Assembly: GCA_938003855.1 (NCBI GenBank)
Contig: CALKXD010000026.1
Coordinates: 1 to 47,112, forward strand
Source of the DNA: an uncultured Granulosicoccaceae bacterium
GTDB taxonomy: Bacteria > Pseudomonadota > Gammaproteobacteria > Granulosicoccales > Granulosicoccaceae
Reading direction: 5' to 3'
DNA: 47,112 nt
Positions within the stretch are counted from its first letter, which is position 1; every line of letters starts with the position of its first letter. Made by a program: the position numbers and the translations under genes. Under the pieces are notes generated by a model. The model ran no database searches and was not told where the DNA came from. It saw only the letters and a program-made list of their open reading frames with translations. Shown here one piece after another: positions 3,003 to 25,606 of the stretch.

Positions 3003-3041
3003 GGGGGCCTCCTGTTTAATGGTGCTGCAACAGCATCGGGG

Positions 3042-3947
3042 TTAGTTGTTGATCAGCGCTGCCATGCAAGTGTCGCGGGCGGCAGCCTGGTCAATGCCGA
3101 CCGCCAGCTGAAATTGCGAATCGGGTCGGTCGTTTATCACTGTGCGCCCGTAGGTTTTACCGCGATCAGTGTCGACAAACAAGCTGGCGTTTTCAAAAGT
3201 GACAGACGCAGTGTCTGCGACAGCGAGTGCCGCGATTGGATCGTAGATTGACATTGATGGCCGCTGTCGTTGAAGGGCAATATCCAGATAGCCACCGAGC
3301 AGATCGCTTAGCAGTTGTCGGTTAGGTCCGGTCATCTCCGGTATGTCCTGCTCGCTAAATCCGACGCCCCGGCAGAGCTCAAGTTCTATCATTCTAAACG
3401 GACAAGCCAGTGAACTGACGATTGCCAGTGACTCCGGGTCGGCCAGCGCATTGTATTCTGCGAACTGTGAATGGTTGCCCCGGCCACGGCTGCCGCCCAT
3501 CCAGGTAATCTGTTCTATCCTTGCGATGACCGTGGGGTACTGCTGCGCCAGTGTTGCCAGATTTGTCAGCGGCCCCAGGGCAAGAATCTGATGATCGCTA
3601 CCTTGCATAAGCCACTTTGCCAGCGCATCTACCGCGTTAGTTGAATGTGGTTTGCTGGCGGATGCCGCCTCGTAAGGCAGTTGCCGACCGCGTGTGCGCA
3701 TGCCGTGTTCGCCTAGCACGCGCACTGCGGTTTCCGGTGTGCGCTGCAGTGGTGTAGCGGCGCCGCTGTAGACCGGCCAGCTGAAATCGAATGTCAGCTT
3801 TGCGCTGAGCGCATTTTTTTCAACCTGTGTCAGCGGGGTATTGCCGGCCACCAGTGAAACGCCGCCGACAGAGCACTTTAGATGGCGCAGCAGCAGCAGC
3901 GCCCATAGGTCGTCAAAGCCAAAATCGGTATCAACCCAGAGAGCCAT
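3042..3947 (-). CDS. Inosine/uridine-type nucleoside N-ribohydrolase
   Basis: This 301-residue protein belongs to the IUNH family, which cleaves the N-glycosidic bond of ribonucleosides to give free base and ribose. The calcium-binding N-terminal signature is present as DTDFGFDD at residues 6-13, next to the start where the family has it. ALGPLTNLA (the usual conserved centre) is near residues 120-130, and a YDPIAA segment with the C-terminal metal Asp lies further on. There is no signal peptide, so it is cytosolic. Its ATG overlaps the ATPase stop as TAATG, implying translational coupling to the transporter. Context suggests purine nucleosides as substrates; the sequence does not fix base preference. 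Confidence 0.92.
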   Translation of the reverse strand: MALWVDTDFGFDDLWALLLLRHLKCSVGGVSLVAGNTPLTQVEKNALSAKLTFDFSWPVYSGAATPLQRTPETAVRVLGEHGMRTRGRQLPYEAASASKPHSTNAVDALAKWLMQGSDHQILALGPLTNLATLAQQYPTVIARIEQITWMGGSRGRGNHSQFAEYNALADPESLAIVSSLACPFRMIELELCRGVGFSEQDIPEMTGPNRQLLSDLLGGYLDIALQRQRPSMSIYDPIAALAVADTASVTFENASLFVDTDRGKTYGRTVINDRPDSQFQLAVGIDQAAARDTCMAALINN

Positions 3948-4990
3948 TACGGTTGAGCGGTGATGAGTCTTGCGCTGGATAGCGGCAGGTCAAAGCGGAT
4001 AGTATCTCCGACGGCAACCGGCGTTACCGACGCATCGATGTCTGCTTTGATCACCCCCGCGTCGGTATCGATGACATACTCGCGCTGCTGTCCGGCAAAG
4101 GCGACAGCCGCGACGGTTCCGTGGTGTCCACCGCTGCCAATGACAACGCCGGTCGGCCGCCAGGCGATATGATCAGCTGCCACCGGGTAGTCGAGCTGCA
4201 GCTGTCCGTGTGGGTTTTTAATGGTACAGCGGTCAGGGGTGGCGGTGGTTGACGGTAGCACGGCAAAGATATTTTCGTAGCCGACAAAATCTGCAGCAAA
4301 CACACTTTGCGGTTGGTTATAGAGTGATTCAGGTGAGCCGATCTGCTCAATGCGTCCGTCTTTCATCAGTACAATGCGGTCCGACAATGCCAGTGCTTCG
4401 GATTGATCGTGGGTGACAAAAACCATCGTGATACCGGTTTGACGCTGCAGCCGTTGCAACTCGGTACGCATCTCCAGGCGCAGTCTTGCATCAAGGTTTG
4501 AAAGTGGTTCATCCAGTAACAGCACCTTCGGTTTCATCACCAGTGAACGTGCCAGTGACAGTCGTTGCTGCTGTCCGCCGGAGAGCTCGGCGGGTTTGCG
4601 ATCTGCCAGGTGCGCCATGCCGACCAGCTGCAAACCGGCCTCGACCCGCCGGGTGATTTCCGCCTCGGGTGTTTTCCTGACACGAAGGCCAAAGGCAACA
4701 TTTTCAAAGCCGGATAAATGCGGGAATAAAGCGTATGACTGAAATACCAGTCCGACTTCGCGTTTGTTGGGTGGTACCCGGGTGACGTCTGTGTTATCGA
4801 TGAGTATCTGTCCGGCGGTCGGGGTCATTAATCCGGCAATGGCTCGCATGGTAGTGGTTTTGCCGCACCCGGATGGCCCGAGCAGGGCGATCAGTTCACC
4901 GCGATGAATGTCGAGGTTCAGGTCGGGCACGGCGACCGTATCGCCATAGGCGAGTGTCAGGTCTTTTAGTGATACAGCGATGTCAGACAT
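3947..4990 (-). CDS. ABC transporter ATP-binding protein, PotA/FbpC type
   Basis: This 347-residue protein is the ATPase of an importer with PotABCD/Fbp architecture. Walker A is GPSGCGKTT at residues 38-46, the Q-loop lies in VFQSYALFP, the signature is LSGGQQQ from 136, Walker B is VLLLDEP near 156-162, and the switch His is in VTHDQSEA. A C-terminal regulatory TOBE-type domain fills the last ~110 residues, as in spermidine and iron importers. I chose the start at MSDIAV rather than an upstream in-frame ATG at 5071. The chosen ATG overlaps the permease stop by eight bases (ATGTCTGA), typical of coupled ABC genes, while the upstream extension lies inside the permease gene and looks non-coding. 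Substrate cannot be read from it. Confidence 0.92.
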   Translation of the reverse strand: MSDIAVSLKDLTLAYGDTVAVPDLNLDIHRGELIALLGPSGCGKTTTMRAIAGLMTPTAGQILIDNTDVTRVPPNKREVGLVFQSYALFPHLSGFENVAFGLRVRKTPEAEITRRVEAGLQLVGMAHLADRKPAELSGGQQQRLSLARSLVMKPKVLLLDEPLSNLDARLRLEMRTELQRLQRQTGITMVFVTHDQSEALALSDRIVLMKDGRIEQIGSPESLYNQPQSVFAADFVGYENIFAVLPSTTATPDRCTIKNPHGQLQLDYPVAADHIAWRPTGVVIGSGGHHGTVAAVAFAGQQREYVIDTDAGVIKADIDASVTPVAVGDTIRFDLPLSSARLITAQP

Positions 4991-5762
4991 AGCGTGAAAA
5001 CCCCAGTGTTTTCTCGGCAATAAATACGATCGCGATAGATAAAAATGCCAGCAGCGCAGACAGGGCGGCAACCGACGGGTCGTAAGTGATTTCCATATAC
5101 GCGAGCATATCTATGGGCAGTGTACGAACCCCCGGGCCGGACAGAAATAAAGACACTGGCACTTGGTTGAAGCTGGTGACAAACCCTAGAATAAAAGCCG
5201 CTAGAATGCCGCTTTTTATGTTCGGCAGCACGGCTTTGGTAAATGCCTGCAGGCGGGTACAGCCCAGCAGTATGGCGGCTTCTTCGATATCGGTACGCAG
5301 GTTCTCCAGTGTCGCTGTTACCACGCGCACGGCATACGGCAGAACCAGCGCGGTGTGGGCCAGAAACAAGGCCAGCGTCACGGTAAAGTTCAGTGGCACC
5401 ACCAGATACCGAAGCAACGCAAGCCCGACAATAATACCCGGCACAATAATGGGCGCCGCGACTATGAGTTTGATTGTTTCAGCGCCGGGTATTTTATAGC
5501 GGCAAATAGCGTAGGCCGCCGGTACGCCAAGTAGCAGTGCCGTCAGCGTTCCAAAAACCGCAAGCAACATAGACAGCATAAAACTCTGTCGGAAACTCTC
5601 GACACTGAAGACCGCCAGATACCATTTCAGTGACAGTCCATCCGGTGGAAATGACAGCGTTGAACCTGCTGACAGTCCGGCGAATATAATAATGAAAAAC
5701 GGTCCGATCAAAAATAGCAGTGTGAGTGAAAGGATAACGCGCGATGCCCAGGTCTGTGACAT
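4983..5762 (-). CDS. ABC transporter permease, PotC-like
   Basis: This 259-residue inner-membrane protein has about six hydrophobic segments and the EAA cytoplasmic loop (EEAAILLGC, about residues 160-168, followed by the conserved LPNIKSG) that docks on the ATPase. Size and layout match the PotC half of polyamine/thiamine/iron-type importers. It starts five bases after the first permease gene stops and overlaps the ATPase start by eight bases, so expression is coupled. The ligand is unknown; the neighbouring nucleoside hydrolase and adenine deaminase suggest a purine compound. Confidence 0.9.
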   Translation of the reverse strand: MSQTWASRVILSLTLLFLIGPFFIIIFAGLSAGSTLSFPPDGLSLKWYLAVFSVESFRQSFMLSMLLAVFGTLTALLLGVPAAYAICRYKIPGAETIKLIVAAPIIVPGIIVGLALLRYLVVPLNFTVTLALFLAHTALVLPYAVRVVTATLENLRTDIEEAAILLGCTRLQAFTKAVLPNIKSGILAAFILGFVTSFNQVPVSLFLSGPGVRTLPIDMLAYMEITYDPSVAALSALLAFLSIAIVFIAEKTLGFSRYV

Positions 5763-5767
5763 ATCGA

Positions 5768-6583
5768 TCAGGCCTTTGCCAGGCGACGCAGGACGACATT
5801 GGCGCCAAAACTCATCACAATAAGGATGGTGGCGATAATACCTGCTGAGACATAGTCGTTGGAGACGTTAACGCGCTGGTATAATAGTGTTTCGAGCATC
5901 AGAACTTTTGATCCACCAAGAATCGCCGGAGTAATGTAGGCGGTCAGCGCGCCGGTAAATACCAGCGTGCCTCCCAGCACCAGGCCTTCGCGGGTGAGCG
6001 GCAGAATCACTCGTGTGAACACCTGAAACCAGTTGGCGCCAAGCACACGGGCAGCTGCAATGGCATCTTTGGGCATGTTTTCCATTGAGCTGATCAGCGC
6101 GATAATCATCAATGGCATGAACAACTGCAACAGTCCCAGAAACACCGCAGTTTCGGTGAATAGAAAGCGAATGGGCGTATCGCTTATGCCGAGCCCGACA
6201 AGGGTGTTGTTAACAATGCCGGTCCGTCCCAGAATCACAATCCATGCATAGGTACGGGCAACTGGCGAGATCATTAGCGGTAGTATGATCAGCCCGAACA
6301 TCCTGCCGCGTTTGGCCGGTTCCAGATTGACAATGCAGAACGCAGCGGCATATCCCACTACCGCACTGACCAACACCACCAGCGCGCCCAGTTTCAGTGT
6401 GCGAAAAAACACAGTGCGGTTCAGAGGCTTTGAGATAAAGTCGGCATAGCCTGCCAGTGACCATTCGCCACCGACTTTAAAGGCCTCTGACAACAAAATA
6501 GCCACAGGCACTAGAAAGAGGGCTGCGGTAAATACCGCCGCGGGCAGTACCAGCGCCAGACCCTCATTGCGATTCTGGAACAG
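5768..6583 (-). CDS. ABC transporter permease, PotB-like, with a probable CTG start
   Basis: This inner-membrane permease pairs with the PotC-like protein. The first GTG in frame is at 6511, but starting there would cut off the first membrane helix. The reading frame stays open upstream to a stop near 6598 and encodes the missing helix (LALVLPAAVFTAALFLVP). No ATG, GTG or TTG lies in that extension. A CTG at 6583 sits five bases after AGGAGAG, so I infer CTG initiation, giving 271 residues. The EAA-loop region (AIAAARVLGANWFQVF, followed by VILPLTREG) is clear. It lies 29 bases after the binding-protein gene. The family call is firm, the exact start moderate. Confidence 0.85.
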   Translation of the reverse strand: MFQNRNEGLALVLPAAVFTAALFLVPVAILLSEAFKVGGEWSLAGYADFISKPLNRTVFFRTLKLGALVVLVSAVVGYAAAFCIVNLEPAKRGRMFGLIILPLMISPVARTYAWIVILGRTGIVNNTLVGLGISDTPIRFLFTETAVFLGLLQLFMPLMIIALISSMENMPKDAIAAARVLGANWFQVFTRVILPLTREGLVLGGTLVFTGALTAYITPAILGGSKVLMLETLLYQRVNVSNDYVSAGIIATILIVMSFGANVVLRRLAKA

Positions 6584-6612
6584 ATCGCTCTCCTGTTATA
6601 CGCCAGCGGGCT

Positions 6613-7635
6613 CTATTGAATGACGTTGCTGTTCCATTGTTCGACCCAGGAATCGCGGTTATCAATGATATCGTCCGGCGATATCATGTTGAGGGAGTTG
6701 ATCAGATCAGCGCCATACGTCAGGCTGTCGGCGATATCAGCGCTGACCTCGACTTTGCTGTTAGCCGGGCTGTCGATTTTTGCATTGGCCACGCGGGTCT
6801 GTACCTCGGCTGACAGCCAGTAGTCCATCAGTTTATAGGCAAGCTCTTCGTTGCCGTTGCCTTTGGTCATGAGCATTACATTCATGCCGCCGGTCTGGCC
6901 TTCCGCCGGCTCTGCCCATTTAAAAGGAAGATCTGATCCGGAAAATCGGCTCCAGGCAAAGCGCCCGACCGGTGCGGCAATGACTTCTTCCTGCTGCATC
7001 AGTTGCGCAAGCTGTGATGAGCGCACGTAGAAAGTCACAATATCATCGGCTTTTTCGCCAATGGCGTTGATGGTGTCAGTGAAGTCGATGCCTTCATGTC
7101 CCAGAGCCTGGCTGAGCATATGCAACGTGAGCGGTCCCTGTGTGCCCGTGATGTTGGGAAGTGCCACACGACCGGCGACGGCGGGTTGCAGAAGATCGCC
7201 CCAGCTTTTGATGTCGACCAGATCAGAGCGGTAGACGATGGAGCTGGCGTAGAAGGTGTAGCCGACTGCCATGTTGTCACCAATCGGATCTTTGGCGGCG
7301 TCGTATAAGTCGTTGAAGCTTGCGAGCTTGCTGGTGTCGAGCTTTTGCAATAAGCCCTTGCGCGCCAATGCCAGTGCGTCGTGAGAAGACATCACTGCCA
7401 TATCGATCACCGGATTGGCCGCATTGGCTTCAATCTTGGCCATTCGCTCGACGCTGTTTCCGGTCTCAATAACCAGTTCACAGTCGCAGATTTCTTCGAA
7501 GGGGTCGTACAGCGCTTCCTTGTAGGCGTCCTGTGCAAATGAGTAGACCGAGATGGTCAGCTTGTCTTTTGCAAATACAGAAGATGAAGCGAGTAGTGCT
7601 CCTATGGATAATGGCAGCAGATACTTCAAAGTCAT
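6613..7635 (-). CDS. Periplasmic substrate-binding protein, PotD/FbpA type
   Basis: This 340-residue protein has a clean signal peptide (MTLKYLLPLSIGALL..., probable cleavage after VFA near residue 22) and the two-lobed layout of the PotD/FbpA binding-protein class, with NSVERMAKIEAN and FYASSIVYRSDL in the first lobe. It is the first gene of the six-gene operon and would deliver the ligand to the two permeases and ATPase downstream. Two Cys (EICDCEL, residues 48-51) could form a local disulfide. The ligand is not determined by sequence. The downstream enzymes suggest nucleosides or related purines, whereas the class is better known for polyamines, thiamine and ferric iron. Confidence 0.88.
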   Translation of the reverse strand: MTLKYLLPLSIGALLASSSVFAKDKLTISVYSFAQDAYKEALYDPFEEICDCELVIETGNSVERMAKIEANAANPVIDMAVMSSHDALALARKGLLQKLDTSKLASFNDLYDAAKDPIGDNMAVGYTFYASSIVYRSDLVDIKSWGDLLQPAVAGRVALPNITGTQGPLTLHMLSQALGHEGIDFTDTINAIGEKADDIVTFYVRSSQLAQLMQQEEVIAAPVGRFAWSRFSGSDLPFKWAEPAEGQTGGMNVMLMTKGNGNEELAYKLMDYWLSAEVQTRVANAKIDSPANSKVEVSADIADSLTYGADLINSLNMISPDDIIDNRDSWVEQWNSNVIQ

Positions 7636-11542: not shown

Positions 11543-12026
11543 CGCTACCTTGTGCAGGCGGTTTTCATGGTCTGTTAACAGCGTGCGCTGATAATTTTGC
11601 AACAGTGTCAAAGCGTCTATGTGCCTTTTCAGTTTAAGCATGCAGGCACTGAATCTATAATTAAATGATAAAAAAAGCTTTTCTGCTGAAGCCAGCCTGC
11701 AACATCCGGTGTGTGCAGACAGGTATCCCTTCCAGGCCGGCACCACTGCCTGGTCAATAAGTAAAACCTGCAGTGACTGACACTACTTTTTATTGTTTCA
11801 CTTTACTTTCTCGCTTTTTTGTTTCTGCATTGCGCAGGCTTGATACGACCGATCTTGAGCTGACCAAAAGGTTGTAGGCAGGCTTGGATTTAAGGCGTAT
11901 TAGTGCGAGCGCTGTGCCCTGTGCCTGATGTTGCCCCGATTTATCTTTTGTGGTCTACTACCATACCAGATGTGTTCTGCAGCTGGTATTGCGATTGTTT
12001 ATACTGAAAACTCAGGAGGATAATTC
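11543..12026. promoter_or_regulatory. Regulatory region upstream of the TRAP operon
   Basis: This 484-bp region without a gene lies between the regulator and dctP. At 11951-11963 is TGGTCTACTACCA, with TGGT/ACCA arms reminiscent of FadR-group operators, although the five-base spacer is longer than the usual three. This is a candidate site for the GntR protein next door. A perfect AGGAGG followed by ATAATTC precedes the dctP ATG. The middle is AT-rich and could carry the promoter, but no clear -35/-10 pair stands out. Confidence 0.4.
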
Positions 12027-13016
12027 ATGTTCCAACGACTCAGGAATATCGCTGGTACGACCGCTCTTGTGGTCGCGGCACTGGCGGGTAACGCGCAGGC
12101 CGCCGATGTGACACTGCGTGGCGCCAGTTTGTTTGATAACGATCATGCCTACAGTAAAACTCTGATTAAATTCAGTGAGTTGGTCAATGAGTATTACGAC
12201 GGTGATGTTGCGTTTGATCTGCGCGGAAACAGCGAGCTTGGCATCGAACCGGACTACGTTAACTTTTTAACGCAGGGTGTCGCCATCGATTACGCGATCA
12301 TCGCTCCGTCTAATCTGGCACGCTTTGCCCCTTCGGTGCCACTGATGGATATGCCGTTTGTATTCCGTGACCTTGATCATTGGAATGCCGTGTTGTCCAG
12401 TGATGTTCTGTCCCCGCTGGAAACCGTTCTGCTCGATAAAGCCGATCTGCGCATCATTGGTTATGCCGGTGGTGGTACCCGTAACCTGATCTCTAACAAG
12501 GTTATCTCTAACCTTGCCGAGCTTGAAGGGCACAAAATGCGAGTGATGGGTGCACCGATTCAGGCGCGTGTTTTTGAAGCGGCGACAGCAGCACCGGCAG
12601 CGATTGCCTACTCAGAAGTCTATAACGCTATTCAAACAGGCGTTGTTGATGGTCTTGAAAATGAAGCAGCAAGTCTGCTGCAGTATAAGTTTTTCGAGGT
12701 TGCACCAAACATCACACTGACTCAGCATTCTATCACCGTGCGCCCGATAATCTTCAGCAACAAATCTTTCGTAAAACTGCCCGAAGCACTACAGGCAGCA
12801 ATCATGAAAGCTGGCAAGGAAGCGGGAGACTACGGTCGTGAAATAGAGTCTCGTGAAGACGGTGAAAAGCTGCAGCAAATGTCTGATGCGGGACAGATAA
12901 AAGTACAGGAGTTTGCTGATCGTGAAAAACTTCTCGAGCTGGTGATACCCGTGCACGATGCCTATGCCGCAGAGCTCGGTGCCGAGGACCTGCTGAAAGC
13001 AATTCGTTCCAAGTAG
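12027..13016 (+). CDS. TRAP transporter substrate-binding protein (DctP family)
   Basis: This 329-residue periplasmic protein has a signal peptide cleaved after AQA near residue 26. It carries the core TRAP signature: GGGTRNLISNK, the carboxylate-binding Arg in HKMRVMGAP, and the YNAIQTGVVDGLENE segment at about residues 200-215. DctP proteins bind organic acids, usually through that Arg, and pass them to the DctQM membrane part encoded downstream. AGGAGG precedes the ATG. A strong hairpin follows the stop. The substrate cannot be named; a sugar acid or dicarboxylate is likely from family habit and the FCD-type regulator. Confidence 0.92.
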   Translation: MFQRLRNIAGTTALVVAALAGNAQAADVTLRGASLFDNDHAYSKTLIKFSELVNEYYDGDVAFDLRGNSELGIEPDYVNFLTQGVAIDYAIIAPSNLARFAPSVPLMDMPFVFRDLDHWNAVLSSDVLSPLETVLLDKADLRIIGYAGGGTRNLISNKVISNLAELEGHKMRVMGAPIQARVFEAATAAPAAIAYSEVYNAIQTGVVDGLENEAASLLQYKFFEVAPNITLTQHSITVRPIIFSNKSFVKLPEALQAAIMKAGKEAGDYGREIESREDGEKLQQMSDAGQIKVQEFADREKLLELVIPVHDAYAAELGAEDLLKAIRSK

Positions 13017-13025
13017 CTGACGAGC

Positions 13026-13070
13026 CAGGTCTTCCATCGTTTGTCTGATGGGAGACCTGATTGTGTTTTT
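13026..13070 (+). terminator. Hairpin/attenuator between dctP and dctQ
   Basis: CAGGTCTTCCATC at 13026-13038 pairs with GATGGGAGACCTG at 13047-13059. This makes a 13-bp stem with one T-G pair and an eight-base loop, followed by ATTGTG and five Ts. Inside an operon this would act as a partial terminator or 3-prime stabiliser, making more binding protein than membrane subunits. Confidence 0.7.
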
Positions 13071-13097
13071 CACTATGCAGGCCGGTGATCCATCACT

Positions 13098-13592
13098 ATG
13101 ATTGAACGATTTCTAGAGGGATTCTGCCAGCTGTTGCGGGTTCTGGTCGGTTTGTTGATCGCAGCGCTGATTGTACCGGTATTCATGCAGGTTCTGGCCC
13201 GCTACACCGGGCTTATCCCAACCTACCTCTGGACTGAAGAGCTGGCGAAGTTTATTTTTATCTGGATTGTGATGCTTGGCTCGATGGTCGCCGTATGGGA
13301 AAACACGCACTTTGATGTACGCGTAATTCCTGATGCGCAAACTCCGCTGGGTAAACTGTTGCAAGTCGGTTTTGTGCTGCTGATGGTATGCAGCTTCGCG
13401 CTGCTGTTTGCCTGGTTCGGTATCGGCTATGCCAAGTTCGGATCCATTCAAACCTCGGTGATGATGCAGATCAACATGCTGTGGATTTATCTAAGTGTTC
13501 CGCTTGCCGGTTTTGTCTGGTTTGTCTTTGCATTCTTCAGGCTTTGTCAGGTGGTGCAATCCTACCGTGTGCAGTCACGGGGGGTGTCGTGA
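13098..13592 (+). CDS. TRAP transporter small permease (DctQ family)
   Basis: This 164-residue protein has four hydrophobic segments, the standard DctQ plan. TRYxG-like and WTEELAKFIFIW motifs near residues 30-55 are typical of the family. It forms the membrane complex with DctM and supports sodium-driven uptake with the binding protein. It lies 81 bp after dctP, across the hairpin, and its stop overlaps the dctM start (GTGA). Confidence 0.9.
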   Translation: MIERFLEGFCQLLRVLVGLLIAALIVPVFMQVLARYTGLIPTYLWTEELAKFIFIWIVMLGSMVAVWENTHFDVRVIPDAQTPLGKLLQVGFVLLMVCSFALLFAWFGIGYAKFGSIQTSVMMQINMLWIYLSVPLAGFVWFVFAFFRLCQVVQSYRVQSRGVS

Positions 13593-14899
13593 TTCTCTCT
13601 GCGGGCGTTGCCTGCCTGATTCTGGTTGGCGGTTTTATCACACTGGTACTGCTGCGTGTACCGGTGGCGTTTGCTCTGGGTATCGCGACAATGCCGGTCG
13701 TCGCACTGGACCTGCGGCTCACGCCGTTTTTAATTCTGGATCGAATGTTCCAGTCCTATAATTCTTTTATTCTGCTGGCGGTGCCGTTTTTCCTGCTGGC
13801 CGCCAATCTCATGAACGCCGGACGTATGACGGATCGTCTGATTGAGTTCGCCCGTGTGCTTACCGGCTGGATGCCGGGCGGTCTCGGCCAGGTGAACGTG
13901 GCCGTTTCGATGCTGTTTGCGGGTATTTCAGGGTCATCAACAGCCGATGCTGCCGGCTGCGGCAAGATACTGATTCCCGCAATGATAGAGAAAGGCTATT
14001 CACCTCGCTTTGCCGTTGCGATAACGGCTTGCTCTTCGGTGATGGGCGTTATCATCCCGCCGAGTATCCTGATGGTTGTGTGGGGTGGGGTAATGTCTAT
14101 TTCCGTCGGTGCACTATTCCTTGCCGGGGCGGTGCCGGGGTTGCTTATTGCAATGGCGCTGATGGGTACGGTTTACGGTTATGCCAAGGTCTATAACTAT
14201 CCAACGGCAGGTAAGCCATCAATGGCTGAATTTATCAGCGCTTTGAAAGGTGCGGGATTAGCGCTGTTGACGCCGGTGTTTGTAATCGGCGGCATTGTCG
14301 GGGGCATTGTGACGCCGACAGAATCGGCCATCATTGCGGCTTTTTATTCGTTTATTTTAGGGTTTTTTGTGTATCGCACAATCAACGGCCGGGAGGTCGT
14401 CGGTATTCTGTACGAGACCGGACGCTTCTCGTCTATCTCGTTGTTTGCTATCGGCACTGCGTCGGCGTTTGGCTGGATGCTGTCTTTTTATAATGTACCG
14501 CGTTTGATCGTCGGTGCGCTGACAGCACTTGAGTTCGGTGCTTTCGGTACGTCGTTAATTATCGCGGCACTGTTTCTGTTGTTTGGTCTGTTTATTGACG
14601 CGATTCCGGCAATTATCATATTGGGTACCGTCCTGTTGCCAGTGGCTCAGGCGGCCGAGATTCATCCGGTGGCGTTTGCCATTATCGGTATTATTTCGCT
14701 TGCGTTTGGTCTGGTGACGCCGCCGTATGGGCTGTGTCTTTTGATTTCATCATCTATTGCGGGTCTCAATGTAGTGCAGGTAATGCGGGATGTGGCGATT
14801 GTGCTAGTGCCGATGCTGCTAATTCTGCTGCTGATTATAGTCTTTCCGGAAATCGCACTCTGGCTTCCAAAAACACTGATGCCTGCGACCTTTAAATAA
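13589..14899 (+). CDS. TRAP transporter large permease (DctM family)
   Basis: This 436-residue polytopic inner-membrane protein has about twelve helices. FAGISGSSTADAAG near residues 110-125 and IPPSILMVVWGG are family hallmarks, as is the GLVTPPYGLCL motif near the C terminus. I set the start at the GTG at 13589, which overlaps the dctQ stop as GTGA and gives the normal DctM length. The frame is open further back to 13388, but that part lies inside dctQ and is not DctM-like. The protein carries the ion-coupled translocation pathway. Confidence 0.92.
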   Translation: MILSAGVACLILVGGFITLVLLRVPVAFALGIATMPVVALDLRLTPFLILDRMFQSYNSFILLAVPFFLLAANLMNAGRMTDRLIEFARVLTGWMPGGLGQVNVAVSMLFAGISGSSTADAAGCGKILIPAMIEKGYSPRFAVAITACSSVMGVIIPPSILMVVWGGVMSISVGALFLAGAVPGLLIAMALMGTVYGYAKVYNYPTAGKPSMAEFISALKGAGLALLTPVFVIGGIVGGIVTPTESAIIAAFYSFILGFFVYRTINGREVVGILYETGRFSSISLFAIGTASAFGWMLSFYNVPRLIVGALTALEFGAFGTSLIIAALFLLFGLFIDAIPAIIILGTVLLPVAQAAEIHPVAFAIIGIISLAFGLVTPPYGLCLLISSSIAGLNVVQVMRDVAIVLVPMLLILLLIIVFPEIALWLPKTLMPATFK

Positions 14900-15067: not shown

Positions 15068-16078
15068 CTAAGCCAGGGCTTCCGTTGTCGTTTTGATGAT
15101 CGCTGCTGCCACTTTGTATGGATCGGCATTAGATGCCGGGCGACGATCTTCAAGGCGGCCTTTCCAGCCATCTTCAACGGTGCCCACCGGAACCCGGATA
15201 GATGCACCACGGTCAGAGACACCGTAACTGAACTGATTGATCGACTGCGTTTCGTGCTTGCCGGTCAGACGCTGATCGTTGTCCGCGCCATAGACGCTGA
15301 TGTGTCGCTCGATGTTTTTTCCGAACTCTTCACAGATTTTGTTGAAGATGTCTTCGCTGCCAGCAGTACGCATAGGGCCGTTGGAGAAATTAGCGTGCAT
15401 GCCCGAACCGTTCCAGTCTGTGTCGCCCAGTGGCTTTGGATGCAGGTCGACCGATACGCCATACTTCTCTGCAGTGCGCTCTATCAGATAGCGAGCCAGC
15501 CAGATTTCATCCCCGGCGCGCTTTGCACCCTTTGCGAAGATCTGGTACTCCCATTGACCGGCTGCCACTTCGGCGTTGATGCCTTCAACGTTTAGCCCGG
15601 CTTCGAGGCAAAGGTCCAGGTGTTCTTCAATGATCTCTCGACCAAATGTATTTTTGCCGCCCACTGAGCAGTAGTACGGGCCTTGTGGTCCCGGGAAACC
15701 GTTTGCAGGGAAACCCAGAGGCAGGTTGGTTTCTGTATCGATCAGGAAGTATTCCTGCTCAAATCCGAACCAGAAATCGTCGTTGTCTTCTTCGATGGTA
15801 GCGCGACCATTTGAAGGATGCGGCGTACCGTCGGAGTTCAGTACTTCTGTCATCACGAGGTAGCTGTTTTTACGATCCGGATCAGGAATAATCGCCACGG
15901 GTTTCAGCAGGCAGTCAGAATCGTTACCTTCTGCTTGCTCGGTAGAGCTGCCGTCGAATGACCAGCCGGGGCAGTCTTCAAGTTTGCCGCTGAAGTCATT
16001 TCTGACCATTGTCTTGCTGCGAAGGCTTTGAGTTGGCTGGTAACCGTCTAGCCAGATATATTCTAACTTGCTTTTCAT
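15068..16078 (-). CDS. glnII: Glutamine synthetase, type II (eukaryote-like)
   Basis: At 336 residues this is the short GSII form, not the ~470-residue GSI of most bacteria. It joins ammonia to glutamate using ATP. The beta-grasp start (YIWLDGYQ, SKTMV), FGFEQEYFLID with metal Glu residues, NAEVAAGQWEYQI, the GSGMHANFS His-Asn pair, and DRGASIRVP plus EDRRPASNADPY are all present. I chose the start at MKSKLEY (16078), where GSII proteins begin. The frame is open 61 codons further, but that stretch looks non-coding. An NtrC-like box lies 235 bp upstream and a strong terminator downstream, so it is a single-gene unit. Confidence 0.93.
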   Translation of the reverse strand: MKSKLEYIWLDGYQPTQSLRSKTMVRNDFSGKLEDCPGWSFDGSSTEQAEGNDSDCLLKPVAIIPDPDRKNSYLVMTEVLNSDGTPHPSNGRATIEEDNDDFWFGFEQEYFLIDTETNLPLGFPANGFPGPQGPYYCSVGGKNTFGREIIEEHLDLCLEAGLNVEGINAEVAAGQWEYQIFAKGAKRAGDEIWLARYLIERTAEKYGVSVDLHPKPLGDTDWNGSGMHANFSNGPMRTAGSEDIFNKICEEFGKNIERHISVYGADNDQRLTGKHETQSINQFSYGVSDRGASIRVPVGTVEDGWKGRLEDRRPASNADPYKVAAAIIKTTTEALA

Positions 16079-16588
16079 GGTCGGATTTTCCAAATGAAGG
16101 TGTTGTGGTACTAACCGGCTATGGGAGCAATCAGTCAGTCTCAGCGACCCGGACGACCTTCGTGTTTGGCGAAAGCACCGATACTGAAAATGCTGGTTGC
16201 TGCCATAGACCAAGTGTTTGGCAAACAGCGAGGTGACACAGCAACTAAATGCGCTCATCAACGCCGATGCTGGAAGGTACTATTTTGTCGCCGTGTTGTA
16301 ATGTGCTAATTATGCACCATGGCGCTGCAAAAAATGCATCACCCTGATGCCGGATTGACTCAATCGGCGTCTACGGGCTGAAAACCGCTAATATGTCACA
16401 AAAAACCGCCGCATTGTTAAAAAACAAGGTGTTATGTCATTGCCTGTCGTGCTTCCACACGCATCAGCGCGCGCTACCAGTGCCAACCGCGCTGTAAATT
16501 GAGTTGTTACCACCAGGGCTTTCGCGAATCTGCCAGCCGTACTGGTCGGGCGAAGTGGATCCGCCAGGTTTGTTTTTTGAGGCCGGGT
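16079..16588. promoter_or_regulatory. Regulatory region upstream of glnII and downstream of the kinase
   Basis: This 510-bp region has no supported gene. It holds the NtrC-like box at 16313-16329. I searched the minus strand between the box and the glnII ATG for a GG-N10-GC sigma-54 element. I found only near misses with nine-base spacing (for example TGGCAGCAACCAGC), so the promoter is not assigned. Confidence 0.5.
16313..16329. promoter_or_regulatory. NtrC-like enhancer box of glnII
   Basis: TGCACC-N5-GCTGCA matches the NtrC consensus TGCACC-N5-GGTGCA at 11 of 12 positions. It lies 235 bp before the glutamine synthetase ATG, a normal distance for an enhancer. A second site of equal quality precedes amt. 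Confidence 0.65.
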
Positions 16589-17969: not shown

Positions 17970-18275
17970 ATGGCGCGAAAAGATCGACCGCAAACCACCG
18001 ACCATCGCTATCTGGTGTCGCGTGGCGTATTAAAGCGATGTACCGATCCATCACTTGCAGATTCTGACCGGCGTAAAGCGGTGAAAGCATTGATGCAGGC
18101 GCGTATGGCAAAAGATCCGGCAGCGGTGCTCAAGGCAAAGGTCGCCCTCGGTGAAGCGGGGCCGGTCTGGTGGGACGATGGCACACCGGATTACAGTGGC
18201 AGTATCCCTGCGGACACGCCCTATGCAGACTGGTGGCAGACGCTGTCAAAAGCACAGCAGGATCAGGGAATGTAG
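17970..18275 (+). CDS. Small conserved protein of unknown function
   Basis: This 101-residue soluble protein is basic at the N terminus (ARKDRPQTTDHRYLVSRG) and ends with a Trp-rich block, GPVWWDDGTPDY followed by PYADWWQTL. The composition and the clear switch from Lys/Arg/Ala-rich helix to an aromatic acidic tail look like a genuine folded protein. I believe similar proteins occur in other proteobacteria, but I cannot name the family. There is no signal peptide or membrane segment. The ribosome site is weak. It precedes the dehydroquinase-like gene by 121 bp on the same strand. Confidence 0.65.
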   Translation: MARKDRPQTTDHRYLVSRGVLKRCTDPSLADSDRRKAVKALMQARMAKDPAAVLKAKVALGEAGPVWWDDGTPDYSGSIPADTPYADWWQTLSKAQQDQGM

Positions 18276-18396
18276 GCCCCTGCCCACTGTGCATTGGACC
18301 GGGTTGTGATTTCCGGTACTGCCGGGCATCACCGATGATTTCCATGTAATCTAACGTAGCCTTAAATTGTGCGCTGACTAAACAGCAGGGGAAAAT

Positions 18397-18822
18397 ATGT
18401 CCAAGTCGATTCTTGTGATTCATGGTGCCGGAATGAACATGCGTGGCATCGCCCAGGTGGAGGTCTTCGGCCCGATGACCTTGCCGGAGTATGACGCCGC
18501 GATCACAGGCTTTGCAGCGCAGGCCGGAGTGCAGCTTGAAATCTACCATTCAAATATTGAGGGTGAAATCATCAATAAGCTGTATCAGGCGCATTCGGCG
18601 GCAATTGATGGCGCTGTGATCAATCCGGCCGGGTTTACCACAGGGTATCCGGCACTCTGTGCCGCAATCACGCAGGTGAGCTTTCCGGTGTACGAACTAC
18701 ACATGACCAACCCCGCTGTGCGTGGTCGTATCTCCGACATCGGGCGGGTGACAAAAGGCGTGATTTCCGGTTTTGGAATTGAAGGGTATCGTCTGGCACT
18801 GGACGGTTTGCTGCATCAATAG
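18397..18822 (+). CDS. Type II 3-dehydroquinase-like protein lacking key catalytic residues
   Basis: This 141-residue protein has the full AroQ (type II dehydroquinase) flavodoxin-like fold pattern: ILVIHGAGMN at the start, YHSNIEGEIIN (50-60), INPAGFTTG (75-83), YELHMTN (99-105) and GVISGFGIEGY (121-131). The catalytic residues do not fit, however. The essential Tyr is Phe24, the Arg five residues before it is Ala19, and the active-site His of the NPxxxTH loop is Thr82. Glu100, His102 and Arg109 remain. It probably keeps a related ligand site but does not run the normal dehydration. No other shikimate gene is near. The family is certain; dehydroquinase activity is doubtful. Confidence 0.85.
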   Translation: MSKSILVIHGAGMNMRGIAQVEVFGPMTLPEYDAAITGFAAQAGVQLEIYHSNIEGEIINKLYQAHSAAIDGAVINPAGFTTGYPALCAAITQVSFPVYELHMTNPAVRGRISDIGRVTKGVISGFGIEGYRLALDGLLHQ

Positions 18823-19198: not shown

Positions 19199-22100
19199 AT
19201 GAGAATACATCGTTCTGTAGCAGCTTCATGCTGGGTATCCCTGATCAGTGTGCTGTTGTACGCCACACTAACGCGGGCGGCCGGCGCGCCCGAGCCCGTG
19301 TCGGCTGATGAGCTTGGCGGCGCGGACCGCTACCTTGCCTATATCAGTACCGATAAACCCGTCTATCGGGAAGGCGAAAACGTCTATTTGCGCACCGTCA
19401 TTCTGCACGCCGCCGACAACACACCGCTGCCAACCGGTCAGAACGTACTGCAGGTAAAAATTACCGGCCCCAAGGGCGATGTGGTCCATGAGGGGTCTGT
19501 GCAGGATACTGAAAGTGTCATCGGATATCGCTGGACGGTGCCGGATGGAGCGGTTGGCGGCGCCTATACCGCTAAAGTCACCAGCCCGACACTGGTATTG
19601 CCCGAAGCACAGCGTAGCTTCGATATTCGCGCTTTCCGCGCGCCACGGATAAAATCACAGATTCAATTCACCCGTGACGGCTATGGGCCCGGCGATCAGG
19701 TCAGAGCCAGTGTATCGATAGAGCGTGCCGAGGGCGGTGTGCCGACCGGGGCCCGCGTCAGGGCCATTGCACGGGTTGACGGCGCGGAGGTTTATCGCGG
19801 GCCTGAGGTACCGGTCACGGACAGCGGTGTGATTGATACTGCCTTTACGCTGCCGACGCAGATTGACACTGGGGAGGGTAGTCTGTCGTTTATTATTGAA
19901 GACGGCGGCATTGTCGAAACGGCCGCAAAGTCATTGCCGATACTGCTCAGTAAACTGGCTATAGAATTTTACCCCGAAGGCGGTGAGCTGGTGGCCGGGC
20001 AGCAAAGCCGGGTCTATTTTCAAGCGCTGCTCACCAATGGCAAGCCCGCTGATGTGCAGGGTCATATTGTAACGCTGGACGGCGATACCCCCGGTAGCAA
20101 AATCATTGCAGAATTTAAATCAAGCCATGAAGGGCGCGGGTATTTTTTGATCACACCGCAAAACGGCAAGCGATATGCCGCCGTGTTCACGGCACCCTCC
20201 GGCATCAGTGTTCCGGCTGAACTGCCGGTGGCCAGTCAAACCGGCACAGTGATCAGCAGCAGTAAAGCCTCGTTCGACTACACAGATTCTATAGAGTTTA
20301 CCGTTGCATCAAATTCCAGCCAGGCCCCCGCACGGCTGACGCTGTATAAGCGCGATGTACTGATTGACAGTCAGGTTGTCAGTGGTAACCATCGGGTGAC
20401 ACTGGATGGCAAAGACGCCGAAGGTGTTTTGATGGTCACTGCCTGGGACAAACAGGGTAATCCACTGGCCGAAAGACTCATTTATAGACACCCGAAATAT
20501 GCCGTCAACGTAGCGCTGGAATTATCAGACGGCCCGTATGTGCCCGGCGCTGAAGTCAGTGTTGATGTGCTCACCACAGACAGCAGCGGCAACCCGGTTG
20601 AAGCGGTGGTCGGCTTGACGGTTACCGATGACACCGTGCTTGAGTTGATCGAAAAAAGACAGCAGGCGCCAAGGCTGCCTGTCATGGTTTATCTGGAAAA
20701 TGAAGTGCTGGATCTGGCTGACGCCCATGTATACCTGGATCGCACCGACCCCATGGCCGATGCCGCCATCGATCTGCTGTTGGCCACGCAAGGGTGGCGG
20801 CGTTTTATTCTGGTGGATTACCCGGGCCTTAAAAAGCAGTACCCGGAATCCGCCGCACGTGCGCTGGCACAGGCCAGTCGACCAAGGCCGATAGTGCGAC
20901 GAGCCAGAATGCTTGAAAGAGCAGTCGCACAAATGAACGTGCAGATGATGGCGGTTGCAGAGAATCAAGTGGAAGCTGTCATGGATGATGCGGCGGTGGC
21001 AGAAGCCGCAGCCGAGCCATCACCACCGGTGCCTGTCGCAGCGGAACTGCCTGTGCCGAATCTGCCTGTACCGAATCTGCAAGGGGTGGCTGATGAGCCC
21101 GAACCGGCTGCCAATGAAGAGCAAGGGGCCGCGGTTGAGATGGCTAAAGCAGACATTGCCGGTGATATGGCGATGATAATGCCAATGCCTGTGGCTGTTG
21201 GCTATAGTCGGGAGTTTGCGTATCAGGTCCGTGCTGATCGCAAACCCGGTGATCGCATAGATTTCAGTGAAACGCTGTACTGGAACACCGGTATAAAAAC
21301 CGGCCCGCGTGATGGTCGTGCCACGGTTACTTTTTCCCTGTCTGACAGCGTCACTACTTTTCGGGTGCTGGCTGATGCGTTCGGGCGCAATGGCGGGCTA
21401 GGCTCAGGTGATACCATGATCGCATCGCTGGAGCCATTCTATATTGCCACCAAAATGCCGCTGTATGCACTTAGTGCTGATGTTATAGAGCTGCCCGTGA
21501 CAATGGTCAATACCACAGCCAGTGCCATTGCCGACGCCCGCATCCGTGTCAGCGGCGAAGGTATTGCCAGTGCTGAAACCAAAGCGGTTACGCTGGCACC
21601 CGGTGAGCGGTATCGCAGTACAGTTAAAGTAACCACACCGGTTGCTGGTACTTTCCCGATCACTGTCAGCGCACAGGCGGGGCCCTACAGTGACACGGTC
21701 ACTCGCAATCTGTCTGTGCAGCCGGCCGGGTTTCCTGTCAGCATCACAGAGGGCGGGCTGCTATCGTCGTCATCTGATTTCAGTACCACTATTAATATTC
21801 CTGCTGAGGTAACACCAGGCAGCATGGTGGCCACCGCAAAGGTCTATCCGTCACCACTGGCCAGTATGGAAGAAGCCCTGAGCGCACTGCTGCGTGAGCC
21901 GCATGGTTGCTTTGAGCAAACCAGTTCTACCAATTACCCGCTGGTGATGGCACAGCAATACTTCGACAGCCACACCGGCGTAGATCCGGAAAAAATAGCC
22001 AGATCTCAATCGCTGTTGAAAGCCGGTTACAGCAAACTGATTAGCTTCGAATCACAAGACAACGGATACGAGTGGTTTGGCGCCAACCCCGCGCATGAAG

Positions 22101-23326
22101 CACTGACCGCCTATGGTCTGATGGAATTTACCGATATGGCGAAAGTCATGCAGGTCGATAACGCCATGATCTCCAGAACCCGTGACTGGTTACTAGGCCG
22201 GCGCGATGGTCAGGGCGGCTTCAAGCGCAACGACCGTGCGCTGGATAGTTTCGGACGGGCGCCAGCGCCGACGACCGATGCTTATATCGTCTGGTCACTT
22301 CTGGAAAGCGGGCAGAACCCGCGCTCGCTGGCCAAAGAAATCGAGCAGGTCAAGGCAAAGGCGTTTGGCGGTAATGACAGTTACATCGATGCGTTGGTGG
22401 CCAATATTCTGCACCTCGCCGGTGACCACGTCAGTGCCGGTCTGTTGTCTGAAAAACTGGCCGCAGCCACCAGTGACAACGGTGCGGTGGAAGGTGCCAG
22501 CACCTCTATTACCGGTTCCGGTGGCGACGCACTAACAATAGAAACCACCAGTCTGGCCTTGCTGGCCTGGCTGAAAGACGACGACCAGTGGGCGGCCCGG
22601 GTAGAACAATCGATTCAGTGGTTGTTCGAAACAAGCAAGTCGGGTCGCTTCGGGTCGACACAATCAACGGTGCTGGCGCTGAAGGCGATTAATGCCTATG
22701 ACGCCGCGCGCGCTGTACCAAAGCAACCCGGTTCCGTTCAGCTGTATGTTAACGGCGACCCTTTTGGTGCCGTATCGATGTTCACCCGCGAGTCCAAAGG
22801 TGCAATCGAGTTGCCGGATTTCACCCGGGTATTGTCTGCCGGTCAGCACAAGATAGAGTTACGCATGACTGATGGCAGCAAAATGCCGTTTGCTTTAGAG
22901 ATCACCTACAACACACCGGTGCCGGCAAACGCCGTTACCACCCCGGTAATGCTTTCAACGGCGCTCAGTCACCAACAGGTGCCCGAAGGCGAGCCGGTGG
23001 AGCTAAGCGCTACGGTTAGTGTGGCAGACAGCAATGTGCCAACCCCCGTCGCCATAATAGGGATTCCGGCCGGGCTTGAGCTGCGTCATGATCAATTAAA
23101 GGAGCTGGTTGGTGCGGGTAGTATCAGTGCCTATGAGGTCAGGGGGGCGGAGCTTGTGTTGTACTGGCGGGCATTGAGGGCCGGGGAGACGCGTGTTGTG
23201 CCGATCAATCTCACGGCTGAGATCCCCGGGCATTTCACCGCTCCGGCCAGTCGTGTGTATCCGTATTACACCGATGAACAAAAACTGTGGCAACCCGGTC
23301 ACTCGATTGAAATCGTTGCCCGGTAA
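19199..23326 (+). CDS. Secreted bacterial alpha-2-macroglobulin with thioester motif
   Basis: This 1375-residue protein has an N-terminal signal peptide (to about residue 28) without a lipobox, so it is probably periplasmic and soluble. After it come MG domains; the MG2-type start RYLAYISTDKPVYREGENV is at about 44-62. Residues ~560-665 are a flexible Ala/Pro/Glu/Met-rich stretch with the doubled PVPNL unit, a plausible bait region. The alpha2M-family core starts at about 670. The thioester site is GCFEQ with Cys904 and Gln907, in the helical toroid domain (to ~1130), then receptor-like C-terminal domains. Such proteins trap proteases by a bait-triggered covalent thioester. No pbpC (PBP1C) gene is adjacent, unlike the classical bacterial pair. 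Confidence 0.93.
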   Translation: MRIHRSVAASCWVSLISVLLYATLTRAAGAPEPVSADELGGADRYLAYISTDKPVYREGENVYLRTVILHAADNTPLPTGQNVLQVKITGPKGDVVHEGSVQDTESVIGYRWTVPDGAVGGAYTAKVTSPTLVLPEAQRSFDIRAFRAPRIKSQIQFTRDGYGPGDQVRASVSIERAEGGVPTGARVRAIARVDGAEVYRGPEVPVTDSGVIDTAFTLPTQIDTGEGSLSFIIEDGGIVETAAKSLPILLSKLAIEFYPEGGELVAGQQSRVYFQALLTNGKPADVQGHIVTLDGDTPGSKIIAEFKSSHEGRGYFLITPQNGKRYAAVFTAPSGISVPAELPVASQTGTVISSSKASFDYTDSIEFTVASNSSQAPARLTLYKRDVLIDSQVVSGNHRVTLDGKDAEGVLMVTAWDKQGNPLAERLIYRHPKYAVNVALELSDGPYVPGAEVSVDVLTTDSSGNPVEAVVGLTVTDDTVLELIEKRQQAPRLPVMVYLENEVLDLADAHVYLDRTDPMADAAIDLLLATQGWRRFILVDYPGLKKQYPESAARALAQASRPRPIVRRARMLERAVAQMNVQMMAVAENQVEAVMDDAAVAEAAAEPSPPVPVAAELPVPNLPVPNLQGVADEPEPAANEEQGAAVEMAKADIAGDMAMIMPMPVAVGYSREFAYQVRADRKPGDRIDFSETLYWNTGIKTGPRDGRATVTFSLSDSVTTFRVLADAFGRNGGLGSGDTMIASLEPFYIATKMPLYALSADVIELPVTMVNTTASAIADARIRVSGEGIASAETKAVTLAPGERYRSTVKVTTPVAGTFPITVSAQAGPYSDTVTRNLSVQPAGFPVSITEGGLLSSSSDFSTTINIPAEVTPGSMVATAKVYPSPLASMEEALSALLREPHGCFEQTSSTNYPLVMAQQYFDSHTGVDPEKIARSQSLLKAGYSKLISFESQDNGYEWFGANPAHEALTAYGLMEFTDMAKVMQVDNAMISRTRDWLLGRRDGQGGFKRNDRALDSFGRAPAPTTDAYIVWSLLESGQNPRSLAKEIEQVKAKAFGGNDSYIDALVANILHLAGDHVSAGLLSEKLAAATSDNGAVEGASTSITGSGGDALTIETTSLALLAWLKDDDQWAARVEQSIQWLFETSKSGRFGSTQSTVLALKAINAYDAARAVPKQPGSVQLYVNGDPFGAVSMFTRESKGAIELPDFTRVLSAGQHKIELRMTDGSKMPFALEITYNTPVPANAVTTPVMLSTALSHQQVPEGEPVELSATVSVADSNVPTPVAIIGIPAGLELRHDQLKELVGAGSISAYEVRGAELVLYWRALRAGETRVVPINLTAEIPGHFTAPASRVYPYYTDEQKLWQPGHSIEIVAR

Positions 23327-24424: not shown

Positions 24425-25606
24425 ATGGTTGGGGCAGATACCGCTTGGATAATAGTAGCGACAGCGTTGGTCTTGTTTATGACGCTGCCGGGTCTGGCGC
24501 TTTTTTACGGCGGGCTGGTGCGGTCGCGAAATGTCCTTAGTGTCTTTATGCACTGCTTTTCCATAGCGTGTTTAATGAGCATTCTATGGCTAGCGGTGGG
24601 GTATTCAATTGCTTTCGGTGATGGCAACGCTTACTGGGGTGGTTTAGGTAAGGCGTTTTTGCAAGGTGTCGATGCCGATACGCTGTCGGGCACCATTCCT
24701 GAGGTGCTGTTCTTTGCGTTTCAAATGACGTTTGCCATTATTACCCCGGCGCTGATCGTCGGTGCCTATGTCGAGCGAATCGGTTATGGTTTTGTTCTGG
24801 TGTTTTCAAGTTTGTGGATGCTGCTGTGTTATGCGCCGGTAGCTCACTGGATCTGGGGTGGCGGGCTTTTGGCCGGTGAGGAATGGAGCCTGTTTGAAAA
24901 TGGCGTCAATGATTTTGCCGGTGGCATTGTGGTTCACCAGACTGCCGGTCTGGCAGCGCTTGTGCTGGCGGCGTTTCTTGGTGGCCGGAAGCAAAAATCT
25001 ATACCGCCACACAACCCCGGCATGGTAATGATCGGCGCGGCGATGTTATGGGTCGGTTGGTTTGGTTTTAACGGGGGTTCTCAATTGGCAGCAGACGGTG
25101 GTGCTGCCATGGCATTGACAGTAACGCACATATCCGCCGCTGCTGCCTCACTGACCTGGGCGTTGTGGGAGCGGTTGCGCCACGGCAAAGCGTCATTGAT
25201 CGGAATGGTGACAGGCACTATCGCGGGGCTAGCCTCGATCACACCGGCATCGGGTTCTGTTGATCCCGTACAAGCGCTTATTATCGGTTCAATTGCCGGC
25301 GTCTTTTGTCAGGTGATGTGTGGTCTGGTAAAAAATGTGATCAACATAGACGACACCCTCGATGTCTTTGCGGTTCACGGAGTTGGCGGGATGTTCGGTA
25401 TAGCTATGCTGGTGGTGTTTGGCCATGCAGGGGCGACTGAGCAGTTTGGTGGCTTGCTGGTTGTTGGTGTCTTCACGCTGGTGATGACCACGGCTATTGT
25501 TCTAGTGACCAGGCTGATCACGCCGCTGCGCGTCAGTGAAGAGGATGAAGAACTGGGTCTTGATCTGGTGACTCACGGTGAGCGTGCTTACAACATAACC
25601 TCCTAG
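24425..25606 (+). CDS. amt: Ammonium transporter (Amt/MEP family)
   Basis: This 393-residue protein has eleven predicted membrane helices and conducts ammonium or ammonia into the cell as a trimer. The pore twin-His pair is present (His171 in DFAGGIVVHQTAG, His318 in VFAVHGVGG), as are the Phe gate residues Phe103 (QMTFA) and Phe215 (FGFNGGS) and the recruitment Asp163. Unlike E. coli AmtB there is no cleaved signal peptide; the chain begins directly with helix 1. No glnK gene is next to it, which is unusual because amt and glnK are most often paired. The NtrC-like box upstream implies nitrogen-starvation control, and a palindromic element begins six bases after the stop. Confidence 0.95.
   Translation: MVGADTAWIIVATALVLFMTLPGLALFYGGLVRSRNVLSVFMHCFSIACLMSILWLAVGYSIAFGDGNAYWGGLGKAFLQGVDADTLSGTIPEVLFFAFQMTFAIITPALIVGAYVERIGYGFVLVFSSLWMLLCYAPVAHWIWGGGLLAGEEWSLFENGVNDFAGGIVVHQTAGLAALVLAAFLGGRKQKSIPPHNPGMVMIGAAMLWVGWFGFNGGSQLAADGGAAMALTVTHISAAAASLTWALWERLRHGKASLIGMVTGTIAGLASITPASGSVDPVQALIIGSIAGVFCQVMCGLVKNVINIDDTLDVFAVHGVGGMFGIAMLVVFGHAGATEQFGGLLVVGVFTLVMTTAIVLVTRLITPLRVSEEDEELGLDLVTHGERAYNITS

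Follow-up and report, generated by a model that had tools for sequence, protein, structure and literature searches.

An AroQ-fold protein without key catalytic residues of type II dehydroquinase belongs to an undescribed PF01220 subfamily

An AroQ-like gene stands alone in its window

The window, a stretch of 47,112 nucleotides from an uncultured Granulosicoccaceae bacterium, contains an AroQ-like gene that stands alone, with a kinase and a glutamine synthetase gene upstream on the minus strand and an alpha-2-macroglobulin gene downstream (table 1). Conservation among congeners starts only at about the Shine-Dalgarno-like motif that precedes the start codon. A scan for promoters and terminators gave no signal exceeding chance, and the 101-aa open reading frame at 17970-18275 was not found in the loci of relatives. 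The first-pass annotation had called an open reading frame with AroQ fold at this place and had noticed no shikimate gene nearby. The coordinates, the PF01220 match and the PDB matches agree with the former, and a survey of the window's larger open reading frames found no shikimate gene among them.

Elsewhere in the window, the glutamine synthetase (15068-16261, minus strand), which the kinase gene adjoins, looks by eye like the eukaryote-like type II form, and an ammonium-transporter-like gene lies at 24425-25606. The alpha-2-macroglobulin (19199-23326) is a large bacterial protein with MG2, A2M and TED domains. An adenine-deaminase-like amidohydrolase, a nucleoside hydrolase and an ABC transporter set (1218-7635, minus strand) likely form an operon for nucleoside uptake and salvage. 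A TRAP transporter set (12027-14899), made up of DctP and DctQ by Pfam and then a gene resembling DctM and the DctM-type genes of loci L027 and L028, lies 3.5 kb from the AroQ-like gene. An operon joining it to this gene was considered and rejected, as minus-strand genes intervene. Sinorhizobium medicae does have a TRAP-AroQ operon, which belongs to another lineage.

Table 1. Coordinates of the AroQ-like gene and of codons at active-site positions (residues numbered as in the window protein; counts refer to the 80 aligned subfamily members unless canonical AroQ is named).
Feature	Position	Strand	Observation
Shine-Dalgarno-like AGGGGA	18387..18392	+	4 nt 5' of ATG; read from sequence
AroQ-like protein CDS	18397..18822	+	141 aa, stop codon included; ORF call, PF01220 match, purifying selection
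His9 codon, new invariant	18421..18423	+	His 80/80; Asn in 20/23 canonical AroQ
Gly12 codon at catalytic Asn12 position	18430..18432	+	Gly 80/80
Arg16 codon, new invariant, lid base	18442..18444	+	Arg 80/80; fixed Leu in canonical AroQ
Ala19 codon at essential lid Arg19	18451..18453	+	Arg 0/80
Phe24 codon at catalytic base Tyr24	18466..18468	+	Phe 79/80
His51 codon, near-invariant	18547..18549	+	His 77/80; Gln 23/23 canonical
Asn76 codon, equal to Asn75, kept	18622..18624	+	80/80; carboxylate and C1-OH binding in AroQ
Thr82 codon at substrate-binding His81	18640..18642	+	His 0/80
Ala89 codon at essential Asp88'	18661..18663	+	Asp 0/80; Ala 71/80
Glu100-His102-Thr104 codons, kept proton-donor pair and carboxylate clamp	18694..18708	+	alignment, literature roles
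Arg109 and 3-residue deletion site, Arg112 absent	18721..18732	+	gap 80/80; canonical Arg or His

The protein has the AroQ fold

The PF01220 match spans the full protein (E = 5e-30, 104.4 bits against a gathering score of 23.3), and every one of its best PDB matches is a type II dehydroquinase. An AlphaFold2 model, for which relatives taken from the loci served as the input alignment, has a mean pLDDT of 96 and superposes on 6hs9 with a Z score of 25.2 at 1.0 Å. The expectation that automatic annotation would name the gene AroQ is right for the Pfam domain but wrong for the NCBIfam aroQ equivalog TIGR01088, where the protein reaches 104.2 bits and falls about 65 bits short of the cut-off of 169.85. 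Genes of this type match only the dehydroquinase class II domain and will probably be mislabelled as shikimate enzymes, which would bring false dehydroquinases into metabolic models and drug-target lists.

The tyrosinate half of the active site is lost

In type II dehydroquinases, Asp88' (the prime marks a residue from the neighbouring subunit) deprotonates Tyr24, Arg19 orients Tyr24 and Asn12 holds the enolate water. The C4 and C5 hydroxyls are held by His81, Arg112 and Asp88', the carboxylate by Asn75, Ser103 and the backbone, and the leaving C1 hydroxyl is protonated by His101/Glu99 (PMC6011038; PMC10772564). Arg19, Tyr24 and Asp88' have been termed essential (PMC6011038), and single alanine mutants of N12, R19, Y24, H81 and R112 in the C. 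glutamicum enzyme lose all or nearly all activity (PMC10772564).

Residue counts come from 80 subfamily members (the window protein and 79 homologues) aligned with 23 canonical AroQ sequences, with the M. tuberculosis and C. glutamicum enzymes as reference numbering. All of N12, R19, Y24, H81, D88' and R112 are absent from the window protein, which supports the earlier judgement that the known mechanism is probably closed to it. Across the subfamily, the Arg19 position is taken by Val, Ala, Thr, Ser and others, and the His81 position by Thr, Ser, Arg and others. The three-residue deletion falls after residue 111 of the window protein and removes Arg112, one of the two loop arginines; depending on gap placement, the retained Arg109 is equivalent to 108 or 112, and just one loop arginine survives. 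Asn75, Glu99, His101, Asn104 and this arginine are kept in all 80 members, and Ser/Thr103 is also kept (M. tuberculosis numbering). The residues that hold the carboxylate and the C1 hydroxyl in AroQ are those retained (PMC6011038). In terms of the AroQ mechanism, the six losses thus take away the base and the side of the site that faces the ring, and leave the acid and the hydroxy-carboxylate side in place.

Phe24, Ala19, Thr82, Glu100, His102 and Arg109, the residues that the first-pass annotation had named, are each correct by alignment; it had missed Gly12, Ala89, Arg16, His51 and the deletion that removes Arg112. Its reading of the change from Tyr24 to Phe as a mark of lost catalysis holds in part. 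Phe24 is present, but it does not disqualify an enzyme by itself, since B. subtilis AroQ, which has Phe at this position, shows weak activity (PMC4314829). What decides the matter is the loss of all these residues together.

The subfamily is a single clade under purifying selection

The 80 sequences share one residue pattern, relatives being about 52-87% identical, and form a single clade on the tree (support 100/99). The bins that contain members belong to Rokubacteria, Chloroflexi, the alpha-, beta- and gammaproteobacteria and other groups; MAG labels such as Asaia and Bordetella among them are bin names and unreliable. One member comes from the cultured strain Plastoroseomonas hellenica LMG 31523. 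In Gammaproteobacteria the subfamily is rare (1/274 sampled genomes), which suggests that the gene entered the window's genus by transfer. Between congeners, dN/dS is 0.03-0.09, and 0.03-0.06 where the window gene is compared with its congeners, a rough ratio because dS is close to saturation; it denotes strong purifying selection, and a pseudogene was rejected on this ground. Chance is also rejected, as 79 homologues carry the same replacements. With the pattern fixed in 80 sequences of one clade, new invariant residues and strong purifying selection, the change is neither a one-off loss nor decay.

Among the matches listed from the plasmid collection there was no clear subfamily member; they were canonical or sister-type AroQ at ≤42%. 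A literature search found no paper on a divergent PF01220 subfamily or on a hydantoinase link. The subfamily is undescribed and new, within the known family PF01220.

Nearly all host genomes encode another dehydroquinase

At 98% completeness, the window's genome contains a single PF01220 gene, the window's own, and one intact type I AroD (PF01487; G000:C113). Read by eye, the translation of this AroD has the motifs GIKIV, with the Schiff-base Lys, and SYHD, with the catalytic His, as well as that of the substrate Arg. The separate aroD or aroQ that the first-pass annotation had proposed to look for is therefore found. Of the 50 member-carrying genomes, 44 have a second, full canonical AroQ and one more has a truncated one; in these 50 genomes canonical copies score 177-211 bits and subfamily members 97-123 bits. 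AroD and canonical AroQ are alternatives across the window's genus, and the subfamily gene is found with either. In two congeneric drafts, G009 and G011 (87-89% complete), chorismate synthase and the subfamily gene are present and neither AroD nor canonical AroQ was found, likely as a result of incomplete assembly.

The presence of another, normal dehydroquinase in nearly all hosts, together with the lost residues, indicates that the subfamily probably has a different job. The window protein is very probably not a working dehydroquinase, and the same combination of residue loss and a separate dehydroquinase in the genome supports the earlier suggestion that it has been repurposed.

Neighbouring genes give a weak link to carboxylates

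Several subfamily genes have close co-directional neighbours of diverse kinds that act on organic or sugar acids. A 2-hydroxyacid dehydrogenase (L023) and a Gfo/Idh/MocA oxidoreductase (L063) each overlap the subfamily gene by 4 bp, TctC carboxylate receptors (L018, L067) are separated from it by a gap of about 4 bp, an MR/MLE-family sugar-acid dehydratase (L043) lies 18 bp upstream, and SMP-30/gluconolactonase is a close neighbour in L060. Some other neighbours are amidohydrolases or N-formylglutamate amidohydrolase. Clustering of about 1,100 neighbouring open reading frames from the window and the 79 loci revealed no partner gene common to several clades. Pfam searches on about 240 neighbours returned a suggestive mixture, most frequently TctC, HpcH/HpaI, SDR and alpha/beta hydrolase, as counts without a background rate. 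Both TctC and HpcH/HpaI genes occur widely in these lineages, so the link to carboxylates is weak. Assignment of a function from operons was rejected, given mixed neighbourhoods with no partner across clades.

A sister clade keeps some of the old catalytic residues

We found a sister clade within PF01220, here called GAN, that consists of six sequences: those of L153, L154 and L155, a second copy in L043, and the genes of Cupriavidus pRK1-1 (L151) and Ponticoccus p-SCP2 (L148). The subfamily and GAN share a joint branch (100/96), each being a separate clade with support of 100/97 or better, and the window protein falls outside GAN. GAN sequences carry the motif QGAN[ML]..LG..[EQ]PE.YG and keep Arg19, Tyr24 and Asp88, but mostly not His81 and Arg112. 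The L043 copy (11629-12090, minus strand) forms a row with two genes of the amidohydrolase superfamily, and the Cupriavidus gene is flanked by MFS transporter/DUF4286 and SDR genes.

A further AroQ, noticed on pSymA of Sinorhizobium medicae (L150, 3094-6432), has Phe in place of His81, and its gene comes immediately after those of a GntR regulator and a DctP-DctQ-DctM TRAP transporter. The arrangement looks like a catabolic operon, and the protein lies on a canonical-side branch shared with L152.

A repurposed enzyme of carboxylic-acid catabolism is the favoured reading

We favour, with a probability of roughly one half, a repurposed enzyme of carboxylic-acid catabolism outside the shikimate pathway; this estimate covers the reading as a whole, including a 2-hydroxy or 2-oxo carboxylate substrate and acid-assisted chemistry. 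The substrate, a 2-hydroxy (or 2-oxo) carboxylate that is smaller or acyclic, would bind in the retained half of the site, with Asn76, Ser/Thr104 and the backbone of 103-104 clamping the carboxylate and the adjacent hydroxyl. When citrate, a 2-hydroxy acid, binds canonical AroQ, its carboxyl and hydroxyl lie exactly in the site that the subfamily retains (PMC10772564), which shows that a 2-hydroxy acid without a ring fits this half. The lid would be rebuilt round the invariant Arg16 and His9/His51. His102 with Glu100, in AroQ the acid for the leaving hydroxyl, may perform acid-assisted lyase/dehydratase or isomerase chemistry. A further proposal, to which we give even odds, is an undescribed enzyme family with a new reaction on the AroQ scaffold, in which the invariant His9/Arg16/His51 set replaces the tyrosinate half, the His/Glu acid stays along with the carboxylate clamp, and the reaction would serve a catabolic step in several phyla. 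Against the favoured reading stand the heterogeneous neighbourhoods, the isolation of the window gene, the failure to find a new catalytic base and a conserved pocket that would suit a binding protein too.

Such a binding protein would be a non-catalytic pseudoenzyme, a sensor, storage protein or regulatory partner whose retained pocket binds a carboxylate metabolite. The loss of six essential residues from a fold and carboxylate pocket otherwise kept, and a fixed operon partner that was not found, are what such a protein would lead one to expect. However, the His102/Glu100 proton-donor pair is kept in all 80 members, the equivalent Glu99 and His101 take part in AroQ catalysis (PMC10772564), and several members lie within catabolic operons, so we regard a pseudoenzyme as a tentative alternative. 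Chemistry unrelated to hydroxy acids, for example that of a hydrolase or that of cyclic amides, with the use of His9, Arg16 and His51, would explain the new invariant residues, and amidohydrolase genes beside the L043 GAN copy and near some members point in this direction. It is nevertheless unlikely, as no amidohydrolase partner recurs in the subfamily, and GAN chemistry need not be shared by proteins without the Arg19, Tyr24 and Asp88 that GAN keeps.

Slow 3-dehydroquinate dehydration, with other residues substituting, can appeal to the active Phe24 enzyme of B. subtilis (PMC4314829), to the remaining His101, Glu99, Asn75 and one Arg, and to G009 and G011, which leave it a small opening. We consider it very improbable: the losses extend to N12, R19, H81, D88' and R112, none of which the enzyme can spare (PMC6011038; PMC10772564), nearly all hosts have another dehydroquinase, the two exceptional drafts are just 87-89% complete, and most species of the class lack the subfamily. 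The lost catalytic residues might also be expected of a functionless decaying duplicate, yet the low dN/dS, the intact frames, the identity maintained across phyla and the residues fixed in all 80 members leave this reading with hardly any credit.

Comparison with dehydroquinases and the sister clade

Type I AroD, which covers the dehydroquinate dehydratase step in the window's genome, has an unrelated fold and a Schiff-base mechanism. With AroQ (C. glutamicum 8idu, M. tuberculosis, B. subtilis 1gqo), the window protein shares the whole fold, of flavodoxin-like architecture (Z 22-25, 1.0-1.6 Å), as well as Asn75, Glu99, His101, Ser/Thr103 and one loop arginine, and it has Phe24 in common with the B. 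subtilis enzyme. The subfamily differs from AroQ by the six absent residues, the shortened loop and the newly fixed His9, Arg16 and His51, and its gene coexists with a true AroQ or AroD. Should the protein be an enzyme, the subfamily would offer a clear example of an old biosynthetic fold turned to other chemistry.

The GAN clade has GAxM, Ile-Tyr, NPAGF and a mostly shortened loop in common with the subfamily, and its copies in the L153-L155 genomes are likewise additional, beside canonical AroQ. It differs by the catalytic residues that it keeps and by the amidohydrolases, SDRs or CoA transferase that adjoin it in the loci seen. Since GAN keeps Arg19, Tyr24 and the Asp but is mostly changed at His81 and in the loop, one can partly see in which order the residues were lost. 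If the subfamily protein is an enzyme, this intermediate clade would make the path of change from AroQ to the subfamily directly testable.
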